A stretch of DNA of 20,070 nt, taken from the IMG/VR virus record IMGVR_UViG_3300007276_000419, positions 1 through 20,070 of that record, one strand, 5' to 3'. The position numbers were made by a program, and so were the translations under genes. This document shows, in pieces, positions 6,929 through 17,297 of the stretch; the stretch's first letter is position 1, and each line of letters opens with the position of its first letter. The notes beneath the pieces were generated by a model, which was not told the origin of the DNA, searched no databases, and saw nothing but the letters and a program-made list of their open reading frames with translations. The DNA is from a virus.

Positions 6929-7192
6929 ATGAAATTTAACGAAGAAGAAATAATAAAAGAAATTACTGAGTATGTAAGAAATACCTATGGAGAACATTAT
7001 AGTGAAGGGGATGTACAGACATTAGACTTTATAGAAGCGTGTGGCGATGCCGAAGCGTTCTGTAGAAGTAATATTTTGAAGTATGCCTCTCGTTATGATA
7101 AAAAAGGAACTCCTCGTAAAGATATTCTAAAGATTATTCATTATGCTATGTTGCTACTACACTTCAGTGATAAGAATAGTAAATTAGAATAA
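6929..7192 (+). CDS. DUF3310/SaV-like small protein
   Basis: Encodes 87 residues, one base after the polymerase stop. Residues 31-80 match the phage DUF3310 (SaV-like) pattern: TLDFIEACGDAEAFCRSNIL followed by KYASRYDKKG and KDILKIIHYAMLLL. The conserved N48, K51, Y52, R55, D65 and Y72 are in place. The family is widespread in phage early regions, and a related domain is reported in the T7 nucleotide kinase gp1.7. A role in nucleotide metabolism is possible but not shown by this sequence. It lies between the polymerase and a PD-(D/E)XK nuclease, consistent with the replication module. Confidence 0.7.
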   Translation: MKFNEEEIIKEITEYVRNTYGEHYSEGDVQTLDFIEACGDAEAFCRSNILKYASRYDKKGTPRKDILKIIHYAMLLLHFSDKNSKLE

Positions 7193-7209: not shown

Positions 7210-7704
7210 ATGATTGATAGAGCTAAGGTTCGAGCTAACCAAATGGGTGAAATACGCAATTCGATCACTCGTGGGGCAGGTAACCTAGCAGGATTCTTAG
7301 GAGAAGAAGCTATAAAAGAATATCTTGGAGCAGAGATAGTAGAATCTGACGAGAAGTTTGATTATGACATATTCCTTAATGGAGAATGCATAGAAGTAAA
7401 AACTAAAAGAAGAACTGTAGCCCCTAGAGATTATTATGATGTATCTGTTGCATCTACAAGTACACACCAACGCCCCGATACCTATATCTTTATAAGCTTA
7501 GAATTTAACGAATTAATAAAAAAGGATGGGGCAAAGGCTTACAGAGGGTTAAAGAACATTTGGTTGTTAGGCAAGAAAGATGCTAAACAGTATTTTGAAG
7601 AAGCTACTCTTTGGAAAAAAGGTGACATAGATACTTCTAATAAATTTACTACCTTAGTAGACATGTGGAACCTACCTATATCAAAGCTGATTTGCAAAAT
7701 TTAA
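7210..7704 (+). CDS. PD-(D/E)XK nuclease-like protein
   Basis: Encodes 164 residues. GFLGEEAIKEYLGAE (28-42) gives an N-terminal helix with acidic E32/E33. FDYDIFLNGECIEVKTK (50-66) is a core beta-hairpin with D51/D53, E62 and K64, the classic D...ExK metal site of restriction-endonuclease-like enzymes. ASTSTHQRPDTYIFISLEFN (81-100) forms a later strand. The family is not identified beyond the fold. It could be a DNA-degrading, restriction-type or junction-cutting enzyme. The start has only a weak AAGAA upstream, and the gap to the previous gene is 17 nt. A consensus promoter begins inside its last codons (7692), so it is the last gene of its block. Confidence 0.72.
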   Translation: MIDRAKVRANQMGEIRNSITRGAGNLAGFLGEEAIKEYLGAEIVESDEKFDYDIFLNGECIEVKTKRRTVAPRDYYDVSVASTSTHQRPDTYIFISLEFNELIKKDGAKAYRGLKNIWLLGKKDAKQYFEEATLWKKGDIDTSNKFTTLVDMWNLPISKLICKI

Positions 7705-7720
7705 TTTCTTAGTATATAAT
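7692..7720 (+). promoter_or_regulatory. Strong sigma-70-type promoter upstream of the AIPR gene
   Basis: TTGCAA (7692-7697) and a perfect TATAAT (7715-7720) are separated by exactly 17 nt. The -35 matches 4 of 6 consensus positions and the -10 all six. The -35 box lies inside the 3' end of the preceding gene. Transcription would start near 7726-7728. This is the best promoter-like sequence seen in the window, and it would give the AIPR gene expression by host polymerase independent of the upstream operon. Confidence 0.78.
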
Positions 7721-7731
7721 AAAAACATAGC

Positions 7732-7791
7732 AATGCTAGACCAGTGGTGATAACCATCACATGGACAAATAAATTCTAGCGTTTAAGGAGG
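7732..7791 (+). ncRNA. Structured 5' leader RNA of the AIPR mRNA
   Basis: The leader folds by hand into two nested helices. The outer helix is AATGCTAGA (7732-7740) with TCTAGCGTT (7775-7783), 9 pairs including one G-T. The inner hairpin is CCA (7741-7743) with TGG (7762-7764), a bulged A7761, then GTGGTG (7744-7749) with CATCAC (7755-7760) closed by ATAAC. ACAAATAAAT (7765-7774) is unpaired between them. AAGGAGG (7785-7791) follows directly, 6 nt before the ATG at 7798. It matches no riboswitch class I recognise. It may stabilise the mRNA, bind a protein (possibly AIPR itself), or act as a small RNA. Confidence 0.5.
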
Positions 7792-7797
7792 AAACTC

Positions 7798-8964
7798 ATG
7801 GCTATTAAAAAATACCCACTCCGGGTTAAGGAGATCAAAAGAATAAAACCGTCTAATAGCGAGCCGGAAGTTGTTCACATCGCATATGTACCCTTTTCTG
7901 GGTTACCACAAGGATTGCCTAATAAATTAAATGTACGAACAATTGATGATTTGGGGTTTGGCACAACTAAATCAGCCGTCTATAGAACAGTAGAGAAAAC
8001 TATTCAGGGAAAAACGGGAAGAGACGGCAAGTTTCATTTAAAAAATAATGGGATTAGTTTAGCAGCATCATCAGTAGTTAAGATAACAAACGATTTATAT
8101 GATCTTTTTATTGATGAAGATAATGAAGGAATTGTAAATGGTGGGCATACTTACGAACTAATTACCCAAAATGTTGATGCAGGCACTGCTATTGATGCAC
8201 TAGTTGAAGTTAAGATTACTGAAGGTATGGATGAAGAAACTAAAGAAGAAGTAGCTATTGGTCTAAATTCACAAGTAAATGTAGATCAAACTTCTATACT
8301 CAATACTAAAAAAGTCTTTAATTCGTTAAAGGACTTTTTAGCAGAACAAAAGCACCCGTACGAGGATAAGGTAGCGTATCAAATGAATGCTTTAGAACCC
8401 ATTAAAATAGGAGAAGTTATATCTAAACTAGTGTGTTTAGATGAAGGCAATTATCCATTAAATAGAGAGCTTTGGGTTAAATCAAAACATCCACTAAATG
8501 CATATTCAGGGAAGTCTGCGACGCTTACAAGATATTCTCAGAAGCTAGAACACTACGAGAAGATGTTTAAGCTATTACCAAATATACTAGAGTTAGCTGA
8601 AATCATTCAAATGAATGTACCGAAGGAGCATGCGAAACAGTTTAAGAATGCTTCTAATAAAGTAGAATATATTGACACAAATAATGTCAAAACAATGTAC
8701 ATTTTAGGTGAAGAATCAAAATCTAATCTTACAGATGGATTAGTTAAACCTCTACTATCAGGATTTCGATCTTTAATAGACCCTAACACATTATCTTGGG
8801 ACAGGTCTTTTACAGAGGTGAAAAAAGTATTGAAGAAGGCTCTTCCAGAGTTAGTAATGTATTTAAAAAGTACAGCTAACGCTCTCGACAATAAACCTAA
8901 CCCAATGGCGAGGGATGAAAGATTGTGGACTGATGCTGCTATGACTATAGATAAGTATAAATAA
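7798..8964 (+). CDS. AIPR family protein (abortive-infection phage-resistance type)
   Basis: Encodes 388 residues from an ATG 6 nt after AAGGAGG. Residues 79-93 (FHLKNNGISLAASSV) and 112-121 (IVNGGHTYEL) match the two signature stretches of the AIPR family, F..NNGI...A..V and .NGgqT. They are followed by LVEVKITEG (135-143) and GLNSQVNVDQTSI (155-167), equivalent to the family's N.Q..V block. Many AIPR proteins are longer (over 500 residues); this one has a shorter C-terminal part of unknown function (200-388). Family members were named for phage-resistance roles in bacteria; the biochemistry is poorly defined. A phage copy could exclude competing phages, counter a host AIPR system or serve replication. 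It has its own promoter and leader and is followed by a hairpin, so it looks like an independently expressed cassette. Confidence 0.75.
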   Translation: MAIKKYPLRVKEIKRIKPSNSEPEVVHIAYVPFSGLPQGLPNKLNVRTIDDLGFGTTKSAVYRTVEKTIQGKTGRDGKFHLKNNGISLAASSVVKITNDLYDLFIDEDNEGIVNGGHTYELITQNVDAGTAIDALVEVKITEGMDEETKEEVAIGLNSQVNVDQTSILNTKKVFNSLKDFLAEQKHPYEDKVAYQMNALEPIKIGEVISKLVCLDEGNYPLNRELWVKSKHPLNAYSGKSATLTRYSQKLEHYEKMFKLLPNILELAEIIQMNVPKEHAKQFKNASNKVEYIDTNNVKTMYILGEESKSNLTDGLVKPLLSGFRSLIDPNTLSWDRSFTEVKKVLKKALPELVMYLKSTANALDNKPNPMARDERLWTDAAMTIDKYK

Positions 8965-8968
8965 TAAC

Positions 8969-8996
8969 TAGACTTTCTATAAATATAGGTTATACT
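8969..8996 (+). promoter_or_regulatory. Probable promoter upstream of the small gene at 9057
   Basis: TAGACT (8969-8974, 4 of 6 to TTGACA) and TATACT (8991-8996, 5 of 6 to TATAAT) are 16 nt apart, immediately after the AIPR stop codon. The sequence around the -10 (TATACTATAAAAACAT, 8991-9006) matches 14 of 16 bases of the AIPR promoter (TATATAATAAAAACAT, 7713-7728), suggesting both are read by the same polymerase form. Transcription would start near 9003 and drive the 9057 to recombinase block. Confidence 0.5.
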
Positions 8997-9011
8997 ATAA
9001 AAACATTAATA

Positions 9012-9042
9012 AAAATATGCCCGTCTTTTGGACGGGCTATTT
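9012..9042 (+). terminator. GC-rich hairpin: weak intrinsic terminator or leader stem
   Basis: GCCCGTC (9019-9025) pairs perfectly with GACGGGC (9031-9037) around a TTTTG loop. With T9018 bulged, AAATA below can pair with TATTT to lengthen the stem. The following TATTTATC is a poor U-tract, so termination would be partial. It lies downstream of the probable promoter at 8969-8996 and 3 nt before the ribosome-binding site of the next gene. It could therefore end AIPR transcripts, attenuate the next operon, or cap its mRNA 5' end. Confidence 0.6.
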
Positions 9043-9056
9043 ATCAGGAGATAAAC

Positions 9057-9275
9057 ATGGCAAAAGTTAGTGCACATTTAGGGTTTACATTTAGAGTAGG
9101 TCCTTTAGACCAGAATCAGTATGGAAGAGTAGATTTAACAATAGATCAAATAGATACAACATTACCTCTAGATGCACAGCTTGAGGAATCAAAAGTAGTT
9201 GCTGATGTTGTTTGGGGTGTATTAAAAGATAAAGTAGATGCTCAAATTGAGGATATGTTAGATGATGGAAAATAA
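9057..9275 (+). CDS. Small acidic unknown protein
   Basis: Encodes 72 residues with AGGAG (9046-9050) 6 nt before the ATG. It begins MAKVSAHLGFTFRVG, has a strand-like RVDLTIDQIDTTLPLD segment, and ends in a helix KVVADVVWGVLKDKVDAQIE. There is no membrane segment or enzyme motif, and the family is not recognised. It is the first gene after the second promoter and overlaps the MazG-like gene by 14 nt, so it probably belongs to the recombination operon. Confidence 0.65.
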   Translation: MAKVSAHLGFTFRVGPLDQNQYGRVDLTIDQIDTTLPLDAQLEESKVVADVVWGVLKDKVDAQIEDMLDDGK

Positions 9276-9522
9276 CGAACCTATAAGAGCCTCAGTTTTA
9301 GAAGCTATCTTAGCTGAAAGAGAACGTCAAGACACGTTGTGGGGTCAACAAAATCACGATGATTCATGGTGGAACATCTTAACCACAGAAAAGAATGGGG
9401 ACATAGCAGAAGAAATATTTTCCCAAACTGATACTAAATTATTTATAGAACTTATTCAGACTTGTGCTACATATTTTGCATGGGCTGAGTGTGTTAGAAG
9501 GAGAATACGGGATGGACAATAA
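9262..9522 (+). CDS. MazG-like (all-alpha NTP pyrophosphatase fold) small protein
   Basis: Encodes 86 residues; ATG at 9262 or the adjacent ATG at 9265, with GAGGA at 9249-9253. Residues 15-47 (AILAERERQDTLWGQQNHDD, then WWNILTTEKNGD) and 63-80 (ELIQTCATYFAWAECVRR) match a phage family with the pattern ERxRQxxxWGxQNH...LxEExGE...EL.qvAA...AW.E. It is related to MazG-type NTP pyrophosphatases, whose acidic residues bind Mg2+. Here the usual EExGE reads TEKNGD, so some metal ligands are altered and activity is uncertain. Possible roles are nucleotide clean-up or lowering alarmone signals. It overlaps the recombinase start by 11 nt. Confidence 0.65.
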   Translation: MMENNEPIRASVLEAILAERERQDTLWGQQNHDDSWWNILTTEKNGDIAEEIFSQTDTKLFIELIQTCATYFAWAECVRRRIRDGQ

Positions 9523-10453
9523 TGCTGAGGAAGCTATACAAAAGCTGCTAAAAAACAAAAAGCTAAACTTCCAATTAGGTGATAGCAATGATTTTACAAC
9601 AAACAGGATTCCATTTGACATACCAGCTTTAGATAAGTTGACTGGTGGTGGGATACCGTTTAAAAAAATGACTCTTATATATGGACCTACTAATGTTGGG
9701 AAGTCTTATTTAGCATCACAAATAGTTGCTAATGCCCAGAAAATGGGAGGCAAAGCTGTATGGGTAGACACTGAATTGTCTTATGATAAAGATTGGATGA
9801 CAAGATGTGGAGTGGACAGTAAAAAGATTTTAGTATCACAGCCTACTACAGGTGAAGAAGCCATGGAGCATATTAGAGAGGCTATGATGGCTAGTTTTGA
9901 AGTAATTGTACTAGATAGTATAGCTGGATTAGTTCCTTCTAATGTATCTGTAGAAGACTTTGGTTATAATCCAATGGCTTGGCAAGCAAGATTTGTAAAT
10001 AGTTCTTTTCCAAAAATTTTCCCTCACTTACAAAATGGATCTGCTTTTGTTGCTATAAATCAAGTGCGTGCTAGTATGGGTCCCGTGGCATTAGATAATA
10101 TGCCTGCAGGACAAGGACAAGTATTTTTTGCCCATTCTATTATGCAAGTTCAACGTAAAGGTTGGATAGAGGAGAAAGAACAAAAAGTTGGGTTTAATAT
10201 GAATATTAGACTAAGAAAGACAAAGACAGGTGGGGAAAATTGGGATTCCGCTATTGTACCTTTCCGTGTTGCCGGGGGTATAGATGTCCTAGAAAGCTTT
10301 ATTAGGGATGGTATTGAAGCTAAACTAATAACACAAGCTGGGGCGTGGTATACTTATGGTGATGTGAAAGCTATGGGCATGAATGGTCTCAAAACAAAGT
10401 TTGTTGAAACCGAAGGATTATTTGAAAAACTAAAAGATGAACTTACCTCCTAG
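9512..10453 (+). CDS. RecA/UvsX-like recombinase
   Basis: Encodes 313 residues. The ATG at 9512 is chosen because AGAAGGAG (9496-9503) lies 8 nt upstream; an earlier in-frame ATG at 9464 would sit deep in the previous gene with no such site. Walker A is GPTNVGKS (58-65). VDTELSYD (85-92) holds the likely catalytic Glu88, Walker B is VIVLD (131-135), and AINQVRASMG (181-190) leads into the DNA-binding L2 loop. The C-terminal GAWYTYGDVKAMGMNGL is typical of RecA/UvsX proteins. It would coat ssDNA and drive strand exchange for repair and recombination-dependent replication. It is slightly shorter than bacterial RecA (about 350). It overlaps the next nuclease gene by 17 nt. Confidence 0.9.
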   Translation: MDNNAEEAIQKLLKNKKLNFQLGDSNDFTTNRIPFDIPALDKLTGGGIPFKKMTLIYGPTNVGKSYLASQIVANAQKMGGKAVWVDTELSYDKDWMTRCGVDSKKILVSQPTTGEEAMEHIREAMMASFEVIVLDSIAGLVPSNVSVEDFGYNPMAWQARFVNSSFPKIFPHLQNGSAFVAINQVRASMGPVALDNMPAGQGQVFFAHSIMQVQRKGWIEEKEQKVGFNMNIRLRKTKTGGENWDSAIVPFRVAGGIDVLESFIRDGIEAKLITQAGAWYTYGDVKAMGMNGLKTKFVETEGLFEKLKDELTS

Positions 10454-17247: not shown

Positions 17248-17262
17248 ATACAAAAAATATAG

Positions 17263-17268
17263 TATAAT
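17263..17268 (+). promoter_or_regulatory. Possible -10 box upstream of the 17298 gene
   Basis: A perfect TATAAT (17263-17268) lies in a 50-nt gap, within AATATAGTATAATATAAAG, with a start site expected near 17275. No TTGACA-like box lies 15-19 nt upstream, and no extended -10 TG is present. It might need an activator or the phage sigma-like factor, or it may be a chance match in AT-rich DNA. Confidence 0.33.
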
Positions 17269-17297
17269 ATAAAGAAGAAAAGTTTTAGGAGAAGTAA

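Follow-up and report, generated by a model that had tools for sequence, protein, structure and literature searches.

The AIPR gene that lies amid the DNA-replication genes of this uncultured phage, presumably marine to judge by the IMG/VR source numbers, belongs to an accessory, moron-like expression unit housed in a hypervariable slot of the replication region, as its patchy presence among relatives and its anatomy demonstrate, and the gene and its leader are exchanged as one unit between constant promoters. The window, i.e., the whole stretch of 20,070 bp from IMG/VR that was analysed, carries genes for a helicase, a primase, polymerase I, a UvsX/RecA-like recombinase, an exonuclease, a resolvase, a terminase and a portal protein, which were in part named by reading the sequence and which are tightly packed on a single strand. 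Intergenic non-coding DNA totals 382 bases in the window, and 185 of them flank the AIPR open reading frame (7798-8964; like the other parts of the locus, on the + strand), in the form of gaps of 93 bp on its 5' side and 92 bp on its 3' side. The first-pass annotation, which had described tightly packed neighbours with the AIPR gene as the exception, was accurate on this point. A separate non-coding gap of 50 bp (17248-17297) contains a TATAAT at 17263, a possible further promoter.

The open reading frame codes for a protein of 388 residues that matches the Pfam AIPR profile PF10592 with an E-value of 9.1e-19 (68.7 bits, for a cut-off of 25), residues 55-196 being aligned on positions 9-150 of a profile of 308. 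The AIPR identity initially proposed on the basis of three motifs is thus confirmed, and the motifs FHLKNNGIS (aa 79-87), IVNGGHT (112-118) and GLNSQVNVD (155-163) are all present, together with the core motifs N-N/R-G, (D/N)GGHT and N...V. All 64 compact AIPR members that were aligned match PF10592; residues F79, G85, G111, G115, G116, H117, N157 and V162 are invariant among them, and, among the histidine columns, H117 alone is conserved in half or more of the sequences. A PDB sequence search with the AIPR protein gave no match. The AIPR/AbiU proteins owe their name to phage resistance and have been linked to restriction-modification operons (PMC2292703, PMC3506569), and AIPR proteins with an N-terminal HEPN toxin domain have been described (PMC3506569). 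Like AbiU/AbiU1-AIPR of Lactococcus and the AIPR proteins associated with restriction-modification, the window protein has a core that fits the PADLOC AbiU model (E 6.9e-10). The match is limited to positions 256-385 of 537, and a full-length AbiU-like protein was rejected on this ground, since some 250 residues that precede the core in AbiU are missing. A HEPN toxin was similarly rejected, the conserved RX4-6H motif being absent and just 54 residues standing before the Pfam match. In contrast to the AbiU systems, no methylase or AbiU2 partner was seen beside the gene, and profile scans of the AIPR neighbours yielded no match to AbiU2, restriction-modification or other PADLOC models; the gene located upstream is PD-(D/E)xK-like.

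The slot is bordered on its left by a core gene of the DUF3310 family (6929-7192; PF11753, E 2.9e-14) and on its right by a conserved small gene, g9057 (9057-9275). Eighty related loci were collected by a scan with a PolA alignment and, among the 60 relatives of the PolA tree for which the locus could be scored, AIPR occurs in 9 and is missing from 51, and consequently a core replication gene is rejected, in line with the self-contained unit proposed earlier. AIPR is also absent from the entire 81-, 66- and 58-kb relatives. Because the PolA tree needs two changes, at least one of which is forced by its starred branches, gains and losses of AIPR are inseparable. In 11 contigs (L013, L017-L020, L025, L050, L054, L078-L080) the interval is reduced to an empty site of 10 bp between the DUF3310 gene and the homologue of g9057. 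In other relatives the slot is filled by various genes, so closely packed that they overlap or all but abut those beside them. Among them are DUF7004 proteins, PD-(D/E)xK-like genes, a C5 cytosine methylase (PF00145, E 1.7e-85) and a Mom-family protein (PF25680, E 5.9e-19); no DUF3310 gene was found in the methylase and Mom relatives, where PolA served as the starting point for measuring the interval. AIPR is the only occupant with a leader and a trailer of ~90-120 bp. A second variable spot of ~600 bp is located beside the AIPR slot in L012-L020, between PolA and DUF3310.

With respect to its organization, the AIPR unit resembles phage morons and variable anti-restriction loci, being an extra gene with its own promoter inserted between genes that abut in relatives, in a slot also used by Mom and methylase genes. 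It differs from a typical moron in its base composition, which is not distinct (G+C 0.32-0.36, the same as in the flanks), in its trailing hairpin, which is not a clear terminator, and in the exchange of whole alleles at fixed promoters. An exchange of AIPR alleles bounded by promoters, in a slot of Mom-family and methylase genes, would be new as far as the literature found shows.

The PD-(D/E)xK-like gene directly upstream, g7210 (7210-7704), is an optional neighbour of AIPR. Its family displays the D-x8-E-x-K pattern of PD-(D/E)xK nucleases, with D53, E62 and K64 invariant down to 18% identity; no support came from Pfam, PHROG or PDB, and the PDB sequence search with this nuclease-like family gave no match. 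The first-pass statement that no companion restriction gene is present is made doubtful by this pattern. An obligate pairing of the two genes is rejected, since AIPR occurs without g7210 in L002 and L006, and g7210 without AIPR in L016 and L034. Moreover, g7210 retains 95-97% identity between phages with an AIPR identity of 51-58%, which indicates that the two genes have different histories.

The promoter P1 (7692-7720) comprises a -35 box TTGCAA (7692-7697) and a -10 box TATAAT (7715-7720) separated by 17 bp. The window holds no more promoter-like sites than expected from shuffles (62 found, 74 expected), so the 10/12 match of P1 is not significant by itself and the case for P1 rests on its conservation. 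In this respect, P1, a folded leader and a Shine-Dalgarno sequence (AAGGAGG at 7785-7791 in the window) precede 10 out of 10 other AIPR genes of the phage group for which upstream DNA could be read, which upholds the earlier proposal of an own promoter, a folded leader and a strong ribosome-binding site. The sequence of the leader has turned over between AIPR alleles while P1, the fold and the Shine-Dalgarno sequence recur. A degenerate P1 pattern was found in just 8 of 2.9 million IMG/VR contigs, 7 of which carry AIPR, the eighth ending there. A second conserved promoter, P2 (8969-8996; TAGACT-16-TATACT in the window, TAGACT-16/17-TATACT across phages), is directed into the next operon, and the group-B P2 pattern occurs in AIPR loci only, among the 198 loci searched. 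A promoter set common to the whole phage was rejected, P1 being confined to the AIPR locus in IMG/VR and P2 to AIPR loci.

Four types of leader were distinguished, each opening with an inverted repeat by the expected transcript start (TAGCaatGCTA, TGTAACgtttGTTACA, ATAGCatttGCTAT and TGTAGCaaaaGCTACA, respectively), followed by a second hairpin and the Shine-Dalgarno sequence. In the window, this short repeat, either a hairpin or an operator, occupies 7728-7738, and its counterparts in other alleles are TGTAAC/GTTACA, ATAGC/GCTAT and TGTAGC/GCTACA. The 4-bp stem of the window repeat is not significant alone (P 0.085), and the fold of the window leader (-21.3 kcal/mol, z -3.5) is dominated by the longer hairpin at 7732-7783. 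Depending on the leader, folding energies are lower than those of shuffled sequence by z-scores of -2.1 to -5.7, and double-sided changes affect two pairs in the first stem and two in the second, a covariation that supports the hairpins and does not prove them, since the counts derive from just 5 and 2 distinct sequences. No riboswitch or RNA family was matched by the leader in Rfam, and sequestration of the Shine-Dalgarno sequence is absent from the minimum-energy folds of the window and L004.

Downstream of the gene, the hairpin GCCCGTC-ttttg-GACGGGC (9019-9037) has a weak T-run. Its place is kept and its stems have turned over in L002, L004, L005, L027 and L030. Since it lies 3' of P2, calling it the terminator of AIPR is unsafe, and it may represent the leader of the next operon. 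The self-contained cassette closed by a trailing hairpin, as first proposed, therefore stands for its promoter, leader and ribosome-binding site, and is doubtful for its terminator.

The comparison of two near-identical phages, L027 and L030, reveals how the alleles are traded. Over most of ~14 kb these phages share 97-100% identity (PolA dS 0.03), and the identity falls to 52-74% in the block that begins immediately past the -10 box (TATAATAAAAA) and runs up to P2. This AIPR block is the only strongly diverged one in their shared DNA, a mild dip at L030 12601-13500 (0.92-0.95) excepted, and the trailing hairpin also differs in sequence between L027 and L030, while the DNA on both sides of it is constant. 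Conversely, silent sites in PolA are saturated between the window and L002 (dS ~2.5), which nevertheless have an AIPR dS of 0.20 and nearly identical leaders; L002 thus shares the window-type AIPR and leader, but does so without the PD-(D/E)xK-like gene upstream. Taken together, these two comparisons show that the leader and the AIPR gene travel together. The RecA/UvsX-like protein encoded at 9511-10453 in the window, ~50% identical in L002, L004 and L005 where several flanking genes reach 66-87%, may be the product of another exchanged gene.

AIPR is under purifying selection and yet changes at several times the rate of its neighbours, with dN/dS values of 0.15-0.34, compared with 0.04-0.05 for PolA (leaving out two pairs of near-identical phages) and ~0.04 for g7210. 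That AIPR could be a selfish or neutral passenger, one that brings the phage nothing and persists through its own promoter and through recombination, is suggested by its patchy presence and by the frameshifted copies of L007 (4965-6102) and L090 (952-2140), whose close relatives are intact and which may reflect either real decay or sequencing errors. However, dN/dS stays well below 1 in all comparisons, and the conserved signals and the strict position of the unit in an otherwise compact genome make such a passenger highly improbable.

The optional presence of AIPR and the trading of whole alleles rather point to a role in conflicts with hosts or rival phages. One such role would be superinfection exclusion, AIPR attacking or silencing competitor phages and the differences between alleles deciding which phage is excluded. 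Near-identical phages that carry different AIPR alleles are what would be expected of a specificity gene for exclusion; the naming of AIPR/AbiU after phage resistance with its linkage to restriction-modification operons, and the occurrence of compact AIPR on Bacillota plasmids as a divergent HTH-AIPR unit, agree with it. Exclusion nevertheless appears unlikely, to the extent that AIPR contains neither a nuclease nor a HEPN motif, with H117 as its single conserved histidine and no N-terminal room for HEPN, that no immunity gene was seen beside it, and that the phages look lytic (no integrase was found in the window), which would leave exclusion less time to operate.

The structure of the protein was modelled with AF2, with a pLDDT of 91 when the alignment of 64 sequences was used; that alignment was needed, the model built from 5 sequences being useless (pLDDT 35). 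The predicted protein consists of an N-terminal domain (~aa 15-161) followed by a helical domain at the C-terminus. The top 15 rows of the VIA-align comparison all belong to the ParB/Srx superfamily and align to residues ~15-161 with Z-scores of 4.5-7.0, led by PadC (7.0) and ParB-CDP (6.9), with Noc, KorB, Srx-ADP, BrxU and SspE also among the top matches, whereas the first unrelated row has a Z of 4.3. The best Foldseek match in the PDB is Noc (E 0.22), and the matches in a viral structure library are AIPR, DndB-like and GmrSD-like proteins. Pfam ParB is not matched by the window protein and, with Z at most 7.0, the match to the ParB/Srx fold is good and not final; the N-terminus is probably a ParB/sulfiredoxin-like domain, predicted to bind NTP.

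GmrS and DndB possess the ParB/Srx fold (PMC4619093, PMC11662687), the N-terminal domain of DndB has been assigned to the AbiU1/AIPR family by Makarova et al. (PMC3506569), and AIPR goes unmentioned in a survey of the ParB-CTPase fold published in 2025 (PMC12704722). The predicted N-terminal fold resembles that of DndB, GmrSD (BrxU), SspE, DndI and other ParB/Srx-fold conflict proteins. Membership in the DndB or GmrSD families was rejected by profile comparison: the DndB profile PF14072 does not match the window AIPR and matches a single one of the 64 relatives, at E 0.075, and hhalign of AIPR against a DndB sequence gives a non-significant probability of 0.6%. In the only local profile alignment, IVNGGHT faces IVDGQHR, so that NGGHT stands where DndB has DGQHR. 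In contrast to the DndB/GmrSD-type proteins, the window AIPR lacks an HNH effector domain and, unlike DndB, it lies outside any phosphorothioation operon.

A ParB-like fold would also suit a regulator or replication accessory, i.e., a switch similar to DndB, ParB or KorB acting on its own promoter and on P2 to time the downstream recombination operon. DndB acts as a repressor and binds to palindromes within its own promoter (PMC4507180), inverted repeats occur by the expected P1 start in every allele, the leader and the gene are exchanged together, and P2 is present only alongside AIPR. However, most relatives have the same downstream operon without AIPR, P1 or P2, the change in spacing of the repeats (3 or 4 nt) is more readily explained by an RNA hairpin than by an operator, and allele swapping in otherwise identical genomes is unexpected of a plain regulator. 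On balance such a switch seems rather improbable.

Full-length homologues of the phage protein occur on plasmids, e.g., pEdBDGP3A of Enterococcus durans and pCYLB47-9 of Lactiplantibacillus plantarum, and in bacterial genomes, from which a scan gathered 80 relatives; a genome search with the phage-only AIPR alignment returned no matches. These compact bacterial and plasmid proteins (348-431 aa) are co-linear over their full length with the phage AIPR (20-28% identity), display the same motifs and are likewise encoded by a lone gene that possesses a control region of its own. In bacteria, compact AIPR mostly forms a two-gene unit with a small divergent HTH regulator, usually 45-235 bp away (L107-L188): 46 of the AIPR loci (bacterial, plus two viral) have, as their neighbour on the upstream side, a divergent gene that does not exceed 130 aa, 34 of the 45 upstream genes scanned match HTH_3, and a divergent HTH gene lies just upstream of AIPR in all six Bacillota plasmids examined. 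No description of this gene pair was found in the literature. The phage unit lacks the HTH gene and is equipped instead with P1, P2 and a folded leader. From this survey of homologues and neighbours, the phage AIPR falls in a compact (~390 aa) subfamily, minus the HTH partner. The genes downstream of bacterial AIPR are not conserved; DndB, GmrSD_N and a Z1-domain gene were each found once. In L168 (5986-8336), compact AIPR is placed directly 5' of a DndB gene (PF14072, E 5.9e-113).

Phage-encoded AIPR genes have already been annotated in the Bacillus phage vB_BmeM-Goe8 (putative) and in Podoviridae sp. ct8nN1, so the phage gene is not of a new kind. Both differ from the window gene in being distant in sequence, and both are uncharacterised; the Goe8 copy resides in another gene context. 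The compact HTH-linked subfamily and its predicted fold would be new, as far as the literature found shows. In an unrelated viral contig of 55 kb (L198:4782-9340), a MazG gene is followed by an AIPR gene that overlaps the start of the gene for DNA polymerase III alpha by 4 bp. This overlap keeps the replication-accessory alternative alive, and fits a replication-linked role better than a conflict role.

The location of AIPR and its rapid allele exchange favour the conflict role over the replication role, and a conflict gene in an anti-restriction-type slot would offer the most economical reading of the locus. More precisely, counter-defence is our tentative preference, held at somewhat less than even confidence: AIPR would be an NTP-dependent DNA-binding switch, delivered by the accessory moron-like unit, that blocks or mimics a host defence. 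Its expression would be driven by a host-type promoter, probably at an early stage of infection; its N-terminal ParB/sulfiredoxin-like domain would bind a nucleoside triphosphate, and its helical C-terminal domain DNA or a partner. The most likely target would be a host defence based on a related ParB/Srx-fold or AIPR protein, in which case allele swaps would follow the prevalence of the different host systems. Apart from the L198 overlap, a Z-score of 7, too low for a fold match to be sufficient in itself, and the lack of profile support for a DndB relationship also tell against counter-defence.

AIPR is a widespread defence-associated family with no established mechanism in the literature found. 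Owing to its compact size and its predicted ParB/sulfiredoxin-like domain devoid of any fused effector, the 388-aa protein represents a tractable form from which to learn the function of AIPR. A broader proposition, which we consider doubtful at present, is that compact AIPR proteins are stand-alone ParB/Srx-fold NTP switches in the conflicts between phages, plasmids and hosts, block-exchanged in the manner of immunity or exclusion types. If true, the leader and the gene would constitute a specificity-bearing transcription unit that gives near-identical phages different alleles. The phages that differ essentially by their AIPR allele, in a slot also used by Mom-family, methylase and nuclease-like genes, provide natural isogenic pairs for tests of host range and phage-phage exclusion.
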